DNA of 64,000 nt from Kangiella profundi (GTDB lineage: Bacteria; Pseudomonadota; Gammaproteobacteria; Enterobacterales; Kangiellaceae): the NCBI RefSeq assembly GCF_002838765.1, contig NZ_CP025120.1, forward strand, positions 2,108,001 through 2,172,000. The letters are read 5' to 3'. The number at the start of each line of letters is the position of its first letter. The stretch's first letter is position 1. Position numbers and translations under genes: made by a program. The notes under the pieces were generated by a model. The model was not told the origin of the DNA. It worked only from the letters and a program-made list of their open reading frames with translations, and ran no database searches. Shown piece by piece: positions 30,658 through 34,668 of this stretch.

Positions 30658-30740
30658 ATCTTCACAACTCTTTCATCTGAGCAGAGATAAGGTTTTAGAG
30701 TTTTTAACAAACTACTAAACCGATGTTGAGGATAAAGATT

Positions 30741-31172
30741 ATGCTTGTGCAACTAACCTATGCTAGCCGAGTAAGCAGGACGCTAAGCTCAGATGATATC
30801 AAGAACATCCTGAGCAGCTCTCAAAAAAATAACAAAGCCGATGGTGTAACTGGTGCTTTGTGTTTATCGAATGGTATTTTTCTTCAAATACTGGAAGGTG
30901 ATCGCCAAAAAGTGAATAAAGCCTACCATAAGATATTGGCTGATGCTCGCCACAAAGATCCAGCCATATTAGATTACAGAGAAGTGATTTCGCGCAAATT
31001 CAGCGAATGGTCAATGGGATTAATCACTCGATCTGATGATAACAGACAGCTTTTCTTAAAGTACTCTTCAAGCTCAGACTTTGACCCTTATAGTATGAGC
31101 GGTGAAACCTTAAGGGGCTTTTTCTCAGAAGTAGTCGATAACGTACGTTGGCTGCGCAAAAGCCCAGATTAA
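30741..31172 (+). CDS. Short BLUF-domain blue-light photoreceptor
   Basis: 143 residues, a stand-alone BLUF flavoprotein without an effector domain. All key flavin-site residues appear at the spacing of AppA: Tyr7, Asn31, Gln49, Trp90 and Met92 correspond to AppA Y21, N45, Q63, W104 and M106 (constant offset of 14). FLQILEGD is the family signature. ATG at 30741 has AGGA eight bases upstream; a start 6 codons earlier is less likely. Short BLUF proteins signal by partner binding. The partner is unknown; the b561 gene just upstream is a neighbour on the same strand. Confidence 0.9.
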   Translation: MLVQLTYASRVSRTLSSDDIKNILSSSQKNNKADGVTGALCLSNGIFLQILEGDRQKVNKAYHKILADARHKDPAILDYREVISRKFSEWSMGLITRSDDNRQLFLKYSSSSDFDPYSMSGETLRGFFSEVVDNVRWLRKSPD

Positions 31173-31319: not shown

Positions 31320-32648
31320 TTGCTTAATAAAGACCGTTCACAACAAGTTCTGCAGATATCGCTGCCCATCGTTGGGGGCATGATTTCGCAAAATGTTTTG
31401 AATCTGGTCGATGCAGCGATGGTTGGTACTCAGGGCAGCGCGGCAATTGCAGCAATTGGTATTGCTGGCTTTATAAATTTCATGGCAGTGGCCTTCTTTA
31501 TTGGCTTTGCCGCGGGCGTACAGGCCATGGTTTCGCGCCGTATGGGCGAAGGGCGAGACAGTGAAGCCGCTTATCCTCTTAACGCAGCCCTCTTAATCAT
31601 AGGGCTGTTGGCGGTCCCAACCAGCATCATTCTATTTTTCCTGGCTCCGGATATTCTTAGCGCCCTTAATAGTGATCCTGAGTTGCTAGAAGAAGGTATC
31701 CCTTACCTTCAAGCCCGCTTCGCTGGCATTTTAGCCATAGGTCTTAATTTCAACTATCGAAGTTATTGGAGCGCCATTAAGCAAACTGGCTACTATCTGC
31801 GTACCCTCTTGATTATGCACTCGCTGAATATCGTGCTTAACTACGCGCTGATCTTTGGTAACTTTGGCATGCCTGAACTAGGGACTTTAGGAGCCGGTAT
31901 TGGCACCAGCATTTCTCTGGCGATGGGTTCGATTTACTACCACATATTGGCGACCAGACACACCAAACAATTTGGCTATATGGAAAGGCTGGCGACTTGG
32001 ACAACCATTAAGTCTATTTTCAGAATTTCATTTCCATCATCAATCCAGCAACTTTTCTTCGCTGGTGGCTTTACTGCTTTATTCTGGATCATTGGCCAGG
32101 TAGGTATTCACCAACTGGCAGCGGCAAATGCCATTACCAATGTGATGCTGGTTGCCATTCTGCCCTGCATTGCTCTGGGCATAGGTGCAGCAACCATGGT
32201 AGGTCAGTCACTTGGCAGACAGGATCCCGATGATGCTTATTTATGGGGTTGGGATGTTGCTAAAATGGCACTGATATTTGCAATCGCTTTGGCAACGTTG
32301 TTCTTTATCTTCACTGATCCCATTATGGGCATCTTTCTGAAGGAGCAGACTGCGCTCGAAATAGCTCATTGGCCATTTAAATTATCTGCAGGCATTATCA
32401 TTATTGATGCGATGGGGCTGGTATTTCTCAATGCATTGAATGGTGCCGGTTACACCAAGCCACCGATGTACGTTTCCCTGCTCTCTCAGTGGCTAATATT
32501 CCTGCCTGTGGCTTGGCTACTGGGTCCCTATTTTGGCTTCGGGCTCATGACAATTTGGTTAGCTTACGCTGCTTACCGTGTGTTACAGACAGGTGCATTT
32601 ATCTGGCTATGGCAGCGTCGAACCTGGGCCGATTCGGTTGTTGACTAA
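31320..32648 (+). CDS. MATE family efflux transporter
   Basis: 442 residues, twelve transmembrane helices in two homologous halves. The first helix has SLPIVGGMISQNVLNLVDAAMVG and the second half AAANAITNVMLVAILPCIALGIGAATMVGQSLG, typical of NorM/DinF-type Na+- or H+-coupled drug exporters. It begins with TTG at 31320 without a good ribosome-binding site, so the start is uncertain. Its stop codon overlaps that of the converging NhaC-family gene. Confidence 0.88.
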   Translation: MLNKDRSQQVLQISLPIVGGMISQNVLNLVDAAMVGTQGSAAIAAIGIAGFINFMAVAFFIGFAAGVQAMVSRRMGEGRDSEAAYPLNAALLIIGLLAVPTSIILFFLAPDILSALNSDPELLEEGIPYLQARFAGILAIGLNFNYRSYWSAIKQTGYYLRTLLIMHSLNIVLNYALIFGNFGMPELGTLGAGIGTSISLAMGSIYYHILATRHTKQFGYMERLATWTTIKSIFRISFPSSIQQLFFAGGFTALFWIIGQVGIHQLAAANAITNVMLVAILPCIALGIGAATMVGQSLGRQDPDDAYLWGWDVAKMALIFAIALATLFFIFTDPIMGIFLKEQTALEIAHWPFKLSAGIIIIDAMGLVFLNALNGAGYTKPPMYVSLLSQWLIFLPVAWLLGPYFGFGLMTIWLAYAAYRVLQTGAFIWLWQRRTWADSVVD

Positions 32649-34027
32649 ATACCTTTTCTGAACAGCAAATTAATAATCACGACGGCTAATAAAATAGGTA
32701 AATACCAAACATACTGCACCGGCTCCAAAGGGGATATCCCAAAGCTGGCCCCAAGTAACAGACACTGAGCACCATAAGGTAATATCCCTTGAGTTGAGCA
32801 TGCACCGATATCGACCAGACTTGCGCTTTGCTTCGGCCGAATAGCACCCTGCTCAGCTAAAGACTTGGTTACTTTACCGGTCAAAATGATACTAACCGTA
32901 TTATTGGCAATCGCCAGGTTAGTTACCGCGGCAGTACTTAATACAGCAAGTTGCGCTCTCAGTTTAGACTGACTCGCGGCAAACAACTGACTTATTTTAT
33001 TGACCAGCCATTGCAAGCCACCCTGCTGTTCTATCAAAGCCCCAAGACCACCAATCAATAACGACAACAGAAAAATTTCCTGCATATTGCTGAAGCCTTT
33101 ATAGATGGTCTGTGCAACTGAGTTTTCAGCTGTGAAACTTCCACCAATAAGACCTATAGCTATACTAATGATGATACCGGCAGGCAAAATGATGAAAACA
33201 TTCAATCCAATTAATGCCAGAACCACGATTGCCAGATAGGGAATCACTTTATAGAGCTGATAATCAGCAACCACTGCTTGCGAGGGCTCGGTTGTAATTA
33301 AGGAGAATAAGGTAATGGTTATGATTGCAGCGGGAATTGCCCAGCGAGCATTCTGACGCAATTTTTCGCCAACTGTTGCGCCCTGGGTGCGCGTTGCAGC
33401 AATGGAAGTATCTGAAGTCACAGACAGGTTATCACCAAACATGGCGCCGCTTAGCAATATTCCAGCTACAATCGCAGGCTCAAACCCAGCTGTTTGCGAC
33501 AAGCCAAAGCCAATTGGCGCAAGTGCTGCAAGAGTTCCCATCGAAGTGCCCATGGCAAACGACACCAGCGCAGCTATGACAAATAAGCCCGGCAACACAA
33601 ATCCCGGAGGAATCCAGTACAGTCCAAAATTGACCACCGCATCAATCGCGCCGATAACGCCAGTTAGCGCCGCAAATGCGCCTGCCAGCAGATATATTAG
33701 ACACATGGCAACAATATTACTGTCACCAATACCATTGAATAAGGTTGCGATCCTGCTCTCAAAGCTTCCTTTGGCCAGATACAGTGAAACAGCAATCGCT
33801 GGCAATACCGCTACTGGAGCGGGTAACTGATAGAAAGCATAGTCGACTCCAATCACAGTGTAGTAAATGCCAGAGCCCAGAAATAAAACCATAAATAACA
33901 GCAATGGCAATAATGACAGCCAATGAGCAGGGTTGTGGCTAGAGACCTTTGGGTGGCGAGTATCAGTGATTGATTCGGAAGAGCCAACTGATGATAGGCC
34001 AGGAGCAGTAGCAAGCTTTTTGGACAT
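32645..34027 (-). CDS. NhaC-family transporter, possibly methionine-related
   Basis: 460 residues, about 11-12 transmembrane helices. VSFAMGTSMGTLAALAPIG and AGILLSGAMFGDNLSVTSDTSIAATRTQGA are hallmark NhaC-family sequences. Family members exchange Na+/H+ or transport amino acids and organic acids; comparative genomics has assigned NhaC-type proteins to methionine and lysine uptake. The leader contains a probable SAM-II riboswitch, which favours methionine or a methionine-cycle substrate. GAAGGTTA precedes the ATG. The stop overlaps that of the MATE gene by three bases. Confidence 0.85.
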   Translation of the reverse strand: MSKKLATAPGLSSVGSSESITDTRHPKVSSHNPAHWLSLLPLLLFMVLFLGSGIYYTVIGVDYAFYQLPAPVAVLPAIAVSLYLAKGSFESRIATLFNGIGDSNIVAMCLIYLLAGAFAALTGVIGAIDAVVNFGLYWIPPGFVLPGLFVIAALVSFAMGTSMGTLAALAPIGFGLSQTAGFEPAIVAGILLSGAMFGDNLSVTSDTSIAATRTQGATVGEKLRQNARWAIPAAIITITLFSLITTEPSQAVVADYQLYKVIPYLAIVVLALIGLNVFIILPAGIIISIAIGLIGGSFTAENSVAQTIYKGFSNMQEIFLLSLLIGGLGALIEQQGGLQWLVNKISQLFAASQSKLRAQLAVLSTAAVTNLAIANNTVSIILTGKVTKSLAEQGAIRPKQSASLVDIGACSTQGILPYGAQCLLLGASFGISPLEPVQYVWYLPILLAVVIINLLFRKGI

Positions 34028-34045
34028 AAATAACCTTCAAAAATA

Positions 34046-34128
34046 GCTTGCGGACGAAATGATACGTTTCAGAGTCACTCTTTAGCGGAATTTTTAGTGC
34101 GCCCGCAAGCGGTACAAATCAGCGCAGG
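34046..34128 (-). promoter_or_regulatory. Candidate SAM-II (metA-type) riboswitch
   Basis: Read on the minus strand, 34127-34076 aligns without gaps to the SAM-II aptamer as I remember it. P1 is UGCGCU (34126-34121) with GGCGCA (34103-34098), followed at once by GAUUUG, then CCGCUUGC in the loop, an A-rich linker after P1, and CGCUAAAG 11 bases after P1. P2a can form as UAC with GUG. GCUUGCGG in the aptamer is exactly complementary to CCGCAAGC (34053-34046), which lies just before UAUUUUUGAAGG, giving a plausible expression platform. P2b is weaker than in alphaproteobacterial examples. Confidence 0.6.
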
Positions 34129-34194
34129 TGGCAACTATACCTGAGTTGCCACGGAAGTCCAAACGGCTAAACGTATAGTCGTTATAACAATTTG

Positions 34195-34668
34195 TTATTT
34201 GAGCATTTTGGAAGCTATGTCCTGCTCATTCACACGCAGGAAGTAATAATCGTATTTATAGTCTTTTTCAAAACCATAGTCGCGGTAAATCTTGTGCAAA
34301 CGATGATTCTCTTTGCGGGTAGTCACCTCAATTCGAATAGCATCGGTTTCCTTGCACAAATCTTTGGCAGCATTCAACAATGCCTCAGCTGTTTGCTTAC
34401 GCCCAGTACCGCCAAATACGTAAAAGTCATTCAGCGTCCAGATTGGAGCCAGACCAATACTTGAATAAGAAGGGTAAAGTTGTATGAAACCTGTCAACTC
34501 ATCTCCCTCATAGGATAAAAATATGGTTGAAGTCTGTTGTTCCAGCATTTGTCGCAAAAACTGCTCAATTTTCTGTGGCTCAGAGGGTTGTTTGTAGCGC
34601 TGGCGATAACTATCAAAGGCAGGCACAAGCTGTTCTAAGTCTTTGATTTCACAAATCTTAATTTTCAA
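34195..34668 (-). CDS. GNAT family N-acetyltransferase
   Basis: 157 residues, single GNAT domain. TIFLSYEGDELTGFIQLYPSYSS forms beta-2 to beta-4, LNDFYVFGGTGRKQTAEALLNAAKD the acetyl-CoA-binding motif A, and IRIEVTTRKENHRLHKIYRDYGFEKD motif B with the usual N...Y..GF pattern. The substrate is unknown. It is upstream of the NhaC-family gene on the same strand, 167 bases apart, with a 9-bp hairpin (34128-34152) and the riboswitch between them. Confidence 0.85.
   Translation of the reverse strand: MKIKICEIKDLEQLVPAFDSYRQRYKQPSEPQKIEQFLRQMLEQQTSTIFLSYEGDELTGFIQLYPSYSSIGLAPIWTLNDFYVFGGTGRKQTAEALLNAAKDLCKETDAIRIEVTTRKENHRLHKIYRDYGFEKDYKYDYYFLRVNEQDIASKMLK

Follow-up and report, generated by a model that had tools for sequence, protein, structure and literature searches.

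The metT gene of Kangiella profundi, on the minus strand of the 64,000-nucleotide stretch of DNA that was analysed as a whole (the window), is preceded by a leader that is almost certainly a member of the SAM-II riboswitch class, and repression of the gene by SAM is very likely. In the likely mechanism that we propose, a SAM-II switch with which the metT mRNA begins would shut off a predicted methionine importer when SAM is plentiful, with MetJ acting in parallel. At low SAM, GCUUGCGGGC of the aptamer would pair with GUCCGCAAGC of the linker, leaving the ribosome-binding site (RBS) and AUG free for MetT to be made; at high SAM, the pseudoknot would be locked by SAM and the anti-aptamer helix blocked, and the freed linker sequence GCAAGCU would form a hairpin with AGCUUGC of the first codons, closed over the start site. 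In the parallel arm, SAM-loaded MetJ would repress the promoter via met boxes just upstream. We infer that the ligand is SAM, that control runs in this direction and acts on translation, and that MetJ binds.

When the complete 64-kb window was searched with cmscan against 4227 Rfam families, RF00521 (SAM_alpha) was the sole match over a gathering cut-off, at 34135-34060 on the minus strand with 36.9 bits (E 1.1e-4). The first-pass annotation had proposed the SAM-II class and suggested an Infernal search with the Rfam SAM-II model, and the leader indeed scored above the cut-off of 36 bits; because the margin is small, membership was settled by conservation in 11/11 orthologous leaders, which also ruled out a chance match. 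Membership of RF01726 was rejected (14.1 bits against a cut-off of 44), and no second RF00521 match was found at E<=1e-3 in the 2,653,010-base genome (one contig).

The aptamer (34080..34126; this and the other leader, promoter and metT features lie on the minus strand) was placed by the Rfam alignment and a letter-by-letter coordinate check, which agreed with the positions previously assigned to P1 and the core motifs. It comprises a P1 of six pairs (UGCGCU 34126-34121 / GGCGCA 34103-34098), GAUUUG (34120-34115), GCUUGC (34110-34105), L3 (34097-34087) and GCUAAAG (34086-34080), with the core GAUUUG, CUUGC and GCUAAAG at standard SAM-II spacing in the RF00521 alignment. P2b pairing, described as weak in the first pass, is weak here too; the P2 candidate positions scarcely vary in the alignments, the RF00521 model as printed is without P2 pairs, and a compensatory change in P2 was sought and none found. 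Two paired changes had been put forward as covariation, which was not supported, both changes being one-sided within the genus: the inner P1 closing pair goes from U-G to U-A in genome G016 on one side only, and in G009 a C of the P2 strand has become A with no change in its partner.

The comparison across related genomes that had been recommended placed the aptamer beside 11/11 Kangiella metT copies (pattern scan of gene flanks), metT being present in 11/20 Kangiella genomes searched and not found in the other nine. RF00521 itself matched 6/11 of these leaders at E<=1e-3 under strict filters, with three over the cut-off. The other ten Kangiella MetT proteins are 61-90% identical to that of the window, and the aptamer core columns are nearly invariant over the 11 leaders while MetT identity drops to 61%; the exceptions are a C to A change in CUUGC of G009 and an A for the G following GCUAAA in G006 and G016. 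The inner five P1 pairs are standard in all 11 leaders, and the outermost pair is absent in G005 and G010 and requires a bulge in G009. In five leaders (G001, G005, G015, G007 and G009), none of which gave a SAM-family Rfam match, a hairpin separates P1 from the A-rich part of L3. A sequence-only model, R1, built from the Kangiella leaders and run over 295 genomes of the order under strict filters, matched the 11 Kangiella genomes and G478, a count that is a lower bound.

The aptamer arm of the anti-aptamer helix, GCUUGCGGGC (34101..34110), recognised by its complementarity with the linker, and the linker arm, GUCCGCAAGC (34046..34055), form 10 bp including one G-U (34110-34101 with 34055-34046); the aptamer-linker complementarity pointed out in the first pass is real, and longer than claimed. 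Over the 11 leaders, 97.3% of 110 cells of this helix are paired, and shifting the register by 1-3 lowers this figure to 15-47%. The helix has its full set of ten standard pairs in 9/11 leaders, with nine in G006 and eight in G009, the aptamer of which reads GAUUGC. One pair is compensatory (G-C to A-U in G016) and two pairs stay standard via one-sided changes; the covariation score was matched by 57/500 shuffles and is not decisive alone. In G006, G012, G005 and G009 the anti-aptamer ensemble lies 2.4-4.7 kcal/mol above the free ensemble in energy, so that a switch in these 4/11 genomes would need kinetic (co-transcriptional) control, and the free fold of the G006 and G012 leaders closes the start site.

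Folding and complementarity also point to a candidate sequestering stem, with one arm in the linker (GCAAGCU, 34045..34051) and the other in the first codons (AGCUUGC, 34011..34017), on either side of the RBS GAAGG identified from sequence (34034..34038). With the aptamer barred from pairing, linker and first codons paired over the RBS and AUG in 10/11 leaders, the folding runs treating the aptamer simply as barred or occupied. In the window, G006 and G012, GCAAGCU pairs with AGCUUGC of codons 4-6, the first codons thus imitating the aptamer, and this length was reached by 27, 138 and 54 of 2000 shuffles, respectively. In seven other leaders, UU(UU)CUGUC, adjacent to the anti-aptamer, forms 7-9 bp with GACAGAA(AA) at the start codon, a length equalled in 10 to 117 of 2000 shuffles; G016 showed no linker-codon complementarity (longest 4 bp). 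We lean towards reading the first codons as a decoy for the linker.

For opening positions -15..+13 around the AUG, the calculated cost was 3.9-7.6 kcal/mol in the anti-aptamer state and 9.5-15.1 kcal/mol when the aptamer was occupied, the latter being the higher in 11/11 leaders (4.4 vs 10.1 kcal/mol in the window). With a narrow footprint (-13..+6), the three-genome clade of the window gave no clear state difference (3.1/4.2, 4.1/3.2, 4.0/4.2). The first codons were then recoded synonymously 100 times per genome with a wider footprint, and the number of recodings reaching the real state difference was 2 in G000, 0 in G006, 1 in G012, 6 in G001, 6 in G005, 0 in G015, 40 in G007, 0 in G009, 0 in G010, 10 in G019 and 29 in G016. 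At most 2/100 recodings therefore matched the real difference in 6/11 genomes, the real sequence being favoured only mildly in G001, G005 and G019 and not favoured in G007 or G016.

The predicted promoter, TTGGAC - 17 - TATAGT (34134..34162), has a -35 TTG and a TATAGT that are invariant and 17 nt apart in ten aligned leaders (G016 left out), with TATAGT ending 7-8 nt 5' of P1; transcription should begin near 34127, where the aptamer has its 5' end. A neighbouring -35 (9/12) from the promoter scan scored no better than shuffles. Hairpin P0 (GTGGCAAC / GTTGCCAC, 9-nt loop, 34128..34152) was recognised from covariation, 3/8 of its pairs being changed on both sides and 96.3% of 80 cells paired in the ten aligned leaders; since it spans the predicted -10, P0 should be absent from the RNA. 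By eye, the MetJ-less G016 has no counterpart of P0.

Three tandem candidate met boxes, ATACGTTT AGCCGTTT GGACTTCC (34153..34176), assigned by consensus score, overlap the -35, and the best two carry 12/16 letters of the tandem AGACGTCT consensus, a score as high being found in 1/500 shuffles. Tandem met-box-like sites (10-13 of 16 letters) lie upstream of the aptamer in 10/11 Kangiella metT leaders, with scores as high in at most 13/500 shuffles for nine leaders and in 49/500 for G007; the three-box scores of G001, G015 and G007 were not above shuffles (62, 230 and 408 of 500). A MetJ gene is present in 15/20 Kangiella genomes, that of the window included, and in 10/11 metT-bearing genomes; G016 is the sole metT-bearing genome without MetJ, and its leader is without met boxes (7/16 letters). 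The window's metT can be assigned to the MetJ regulon on two features, the candidate tandem met boxes and the presence of MetJ in the genome, and MetJ would quite likely act on the same promoter as the riboswitch. This pattern suggests two sensors for SAM, one a protein and one an RNA. Neither the met boxes nor the pairing of the linker with the first codons had been noted in the first pass.

The leader sits between a GNAT gene (ending at 34195) and metT (32645..34027), which encodes a 460-aa NhaC-superfamily transporter of the MetT type, a methionine permease as predicted from PF03553 and homology. The PF03553 match confirms the NhaC-family target of the first-pass annotation, with the riboswitch ahead of an NhaC-superfamily gene. 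NCBIfam matches to NhaC (TIGR00931) and ArcD were both far under their cut-offs, that of TIGR00931 being an equivalog cut-off, and a PDB sequence search with MetT gave no match at E<=0.001. Homologues of NhaC include Na+/H+ and arginine/ornithine antiporters. Among the best 80 of 264 homologous loci, 78 outside Kangiella encode proteins with 47-54% identity to the window MetT; they belong to Shewanella, Pseudoalteromonas, Idiomarina and others, and most have met-box-like sites.

The methionine role suggested in the first pass is supported, although its basis is not the riboswitch alone, since the family is MetT, which is MetJ-repressed elsewhere: the available text of PMC3228920 describes repression by MetJ of metT of Vibrio and Shewanella (ratios 0.08 and 0.21). 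MetT is a predicted sodium-dependent methionine permease in the accessible part of PMC4239095, and an S-box ahead of Clostridium metT is described in that of PMC2940859; Kangiella is named among species without a methionine-specific transporter in the available text of PMC3228920. We infer methionine as the cargo of the window MetT, which would give a Kangiella protein otherwise labelled only as a generic 'Na+/H+ antiporter' a part in methionine/SAM metabolism. The neighbouring MATE transporter gene (31320-32648) is convergent with metT, their 3' ends overlapping by 4 bases, and a BLUF blue-light sensor gene (PF04940) lies at 30723-31172.

A pattern search of leaders at the best 80 of 264 confirmed homologous metT loci revealed the SAM-II core in 42, two from Kangiella and 40 from Pseudoalteromonas; the remaining 38 include 8 Pseudoalteromonas loci without the core and L079, which holds 48 nt of leader only and is too short to judge. 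The Pseudoalteromonas leaders fall into type A (n=26; GAUUUG, CUUGC and a hairpin inserted in L3) and type B (n=14; GAUUUA or GAUUUC, AUUGC and GCUAAU). In the 23 distinct type A sequences, 4/4 basal stem pairs of the L3 insertion are changed on both sides and 87% of cells are paired, and P1 has one compensatory pair (C-G to U-A). Type B leaders (L006, L014, L042, L050 and L053 included) have GCUAAU for the conserved GCUAAA and GAUUUA/C for GAUUUG, core letters that possibly reflect an altered ligand contact. Rfam gave no SAM-family match in the 12 examined of the 40 Pseudoalteromonas leaders, nor in the L146 leader (genome G740).

A second model, R2, built from the 23 type A Pseudoalteromonas leaders only, found 11/11 Kangiella leaders (E 3e-6 to 0.014), 9/9 type B leaders examined and 0/7 leaders without a SAM-II core, with one stray match to L059 (E 0.041). 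It matched 71/108 genomes of the genus of G740 (taken as Pseudoalteromonas from sequence; these are model matches only), and five were found when it was run over 394 genomes with strict filters. Because of these filters the R1 and R2 counts are lower bounds, R2 there missing 8/11 known Kangiella leaders. In G478, which belongs to a third family of the order, a SAM-II match of 30.2 bits, below the cut-off, is accompanied by met boxes of 13/16 letters and a MetT homologue downstream; R2 found the element in 1/5 genomes of that genus. The G093 match L089 (99 nt, E 2.2e-4) was judged by eye only and is unproven. Best two-box met scores of 11-15 of 16 were obtained in 79/80 of the best loci (28 of these scoring 11), and of 1560 shuffles of 78 loci, 1451 scored 8-10 and none exceeded 12. 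When 65 MetT proteins (reduced from 90) were placed in a tree, the Kangiella genes formed one clade and the placement of G478 was unsure; SAM-II-bearing and SAM-II-less genes were intermixed in Pseudoalteromonas, so that several gains or losses of SAM-II are needed.

All 40 SAM-II-bearing Pseudoalteromonas metT genes have CAGCC within the first 14 nt of an in-frame ATG (all in-frame ATGs being allowed) and 39/40 of their linkers contain GGCUG, whereas CAGCC was so placed in 0/8 Pseudoalteromonas metT genes without SAM-II (Fisher p 2.7e-9, kinship ignored). Pseudoalteromonas thus appears, from these sequence patterns, to reuse the codon trick independently with different letters. The linker UUUGGCUG matches CAGCUAAA of the aptamer 3' strand, with 97.3% of cells paired over the 23 type A sequences; this helix hardly varies, shows no covariation and needs one U-G pair. 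Under strict Watson-Crick scoring the linker-aptamer matches were mostly not significant, and none of the 6-bp linker-codon matches was significant taken singly. Opening energies (-15..+13) showed a clear state difference in part of type A and less than 1 kcal/mol between states in 13/14 type B leaders. These energy and match runs used the first in-frame ATG, and in L020, L021, L030, L035 and L041 this ATG lies too far upstream. Our broader proposal, a double lock on metT in several marine gammaproteobacteria (MetJ-SAM and a SAM-II variant) with a three-way exchange between codons, aptamer and linker, in different letters in Kangiella (aptamer 5' strand) and Pseudoalteromonas (3' strand), and with a hairpin-bearing subgroup unseen by Rfam, is one for which we find belief and doubt evenly balanced.

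Control of metT might instead be transcriptional, the anti-aptamer stem and UAUUUUU acting as an intrinsic terminator, a reading that we consider distinctly unlikely. A U-run does follow the stem in the window, G006, G012 and G016, SAM-II often precedes terminators according to the available text of PMC2258182, and U-runs were seen by eye after hairpins in many SAM-II loci of the class; however, the other 7/11 Kangiella leaders are without a U-run of five after the stem, the helix arms lie 45 nt apart, the U-run ends at the RBS, and a terminator scan, allowing loops of 3-8 only, found none at the leader. The sign may also be reversed under a terminator, SAM then permitting read-through, and an importer induced by SAM makes poor sense. 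We retain the translational switch. A transporter cargo other than methionine, to which the NCBIfam matches to NhaC and ArcD, both far under their cut-offs, might point, is rather unlikely given the met-box-like sites across orthologues, the MetJ repression of metT in two genera (PMC3228920, available text) and the S-box ahead of Clostridium metT (PMC2940859, accessible part). With MetJ, S-box and SAM-II, three methionine-pathway regulators therefore converge on the MetT family, transport itself being predicted.

Were the aptamer a relic, or an element with another role (5' stabiliser, or small-RNA or protein site), MetJ alone would control metT, and both the met boxes and the Shewanella and 8 Pseudoalteromonas metT loci with met-box-like sites and no SAM-II core fit such a situation. 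Nevertheless, the core is retained in 11/11 Kangiella leaders with MetT identity down to 61%, and G016 keeps it though without MetJ and boxes, making this explanation very improbable. We give just as little credence to SAH or another SAM relative as the ligand in place of SAM: the type B Pseudoalteromonas aptamers do have GCUAAU instead of GCUAAA, yet the window carries the conserved core of the SAM-binding family, none of the Rfam families for SAH, SAM/SAH or SAM-V matched its leader even up to E 10, and SAM is a sensible end product for an importer to answer to. SAM-dependent repression through the SAM-II aptamer, with MetJ in parallel, is thus the account we prefer.

Across the window's class (GTDB Gammaproteobacteria, which includes the betaproteobacteria), RF00521 matched 118/369 genomes at E<=1e-3 and 31/369 over the cut-off, so that the first-pass description of SAM-II as mainly alphaproteobacterial is outdated. 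In the parts of the sources available, PMC2258182 (2007) mentions sporadic SAM-II in gammaproteobacteria, PMC2704228 gives SAM-II as commonest in the alpha, beta and gamma groups, and PMC4239095 describes SAM_alpha as restricted to Rhizobiales and Rhodobacterales among about 200 proteobacterial genomes. Two SAM-II loci of the class, L113 and L122, have two tandem SAM-II cores in the leader (pattern and eye). Judged by eye from the N-terminus, the next gene at loci L102-L130 encodes what we take to be a MetY/MetZ-type enzyme in 22/29 and, presumably, SAM synthetase in two (L111 and L124), five being unreadable this way. Finally, a SAM-II-like element (GAUUUG..AUUGC..GCUAAA) in L085, L086 (1516 on) and L082 (reverse strand), scoring 35.2, 35.2 and 36.8 bits, precedes a membrane protein gene, AlkB-like by eye, in three Kangiella genomes without MetJ; in L085 this gene matches PF00487 (fatty-acid desaturase), and the one after it is ferredoxin-like (PF00111).

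Compared with SAM-II as represented by RF00521, the window leader shares P1, GAUUUG, GCUUGC, the A-rich L3, GCUAAAG, their spacing and an over-cut-off score. The target here is a transporter, whereas the known targets given in the available text of PMC4239095 are metY, metA, metX, hom, metC and metW. In the metA SAM-II of S. meliloti the RBS lies inside P2 (PMC9373788, accessible part), in contrast to the separate anti-aptamer and first-codon stem predicted here, an arrangement that also differs from the terminator-like hairpins at many SAM-II loci of the class. L3 contains an inserted hairpin in 5/11 Kangiella and 26/40 Pseudoalteromonas leaders. RF01726 (SAM-II long loop) likewise covers SAM-II with longer loops, from Bacteroidetes and marine samples (PMC2864571, available text), but the five L3-hairpin Kangiella leaders and the Pseudoalteromonas leaders examined did not match it at E up to 0.1 or 0.5. 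As current models overlook SAM-II with such a hairpin, counts of the class in marine bacteria are probably too low.

The Clostridium perfringens metT riboswitch is an S-box (SAM-I), a class unrelated to SAM-II, and we know of no MetJ in that system; the likeness is that of a SAM riboswitch before an NhaC-superfamily methionine transporter gene (PMC2940859, accessible part). An open-licence literature search found neither MetJ together with SAM-II in Pseudoalteromonas nor a SAM-II riboswitch there. The btuB riboswitch reads a cobalamin, and protein and RNA at btuB read different molecules, whereas at metT both would read SAM. The two genes are alike in having a MetJ operator followed by a riboswitch, and the available text of PMC3228920, which has Pseudoalteromonas among its species, suggests that btuB is the sole gene of its study also under a riboswitch. 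The metT leader would accordingly be a natural case in which a single gene has both a repressor protein and a riboswitch responding to one metabolite, and since G016 has the RNA half only, it can be asked what the second sensor adds. In the metT SAM-II both the target and the control region are new, relatives add a new variant of the aptamer, and a probable MetJ operator accompanies the switch; the system is known in kind and new in arrangement.
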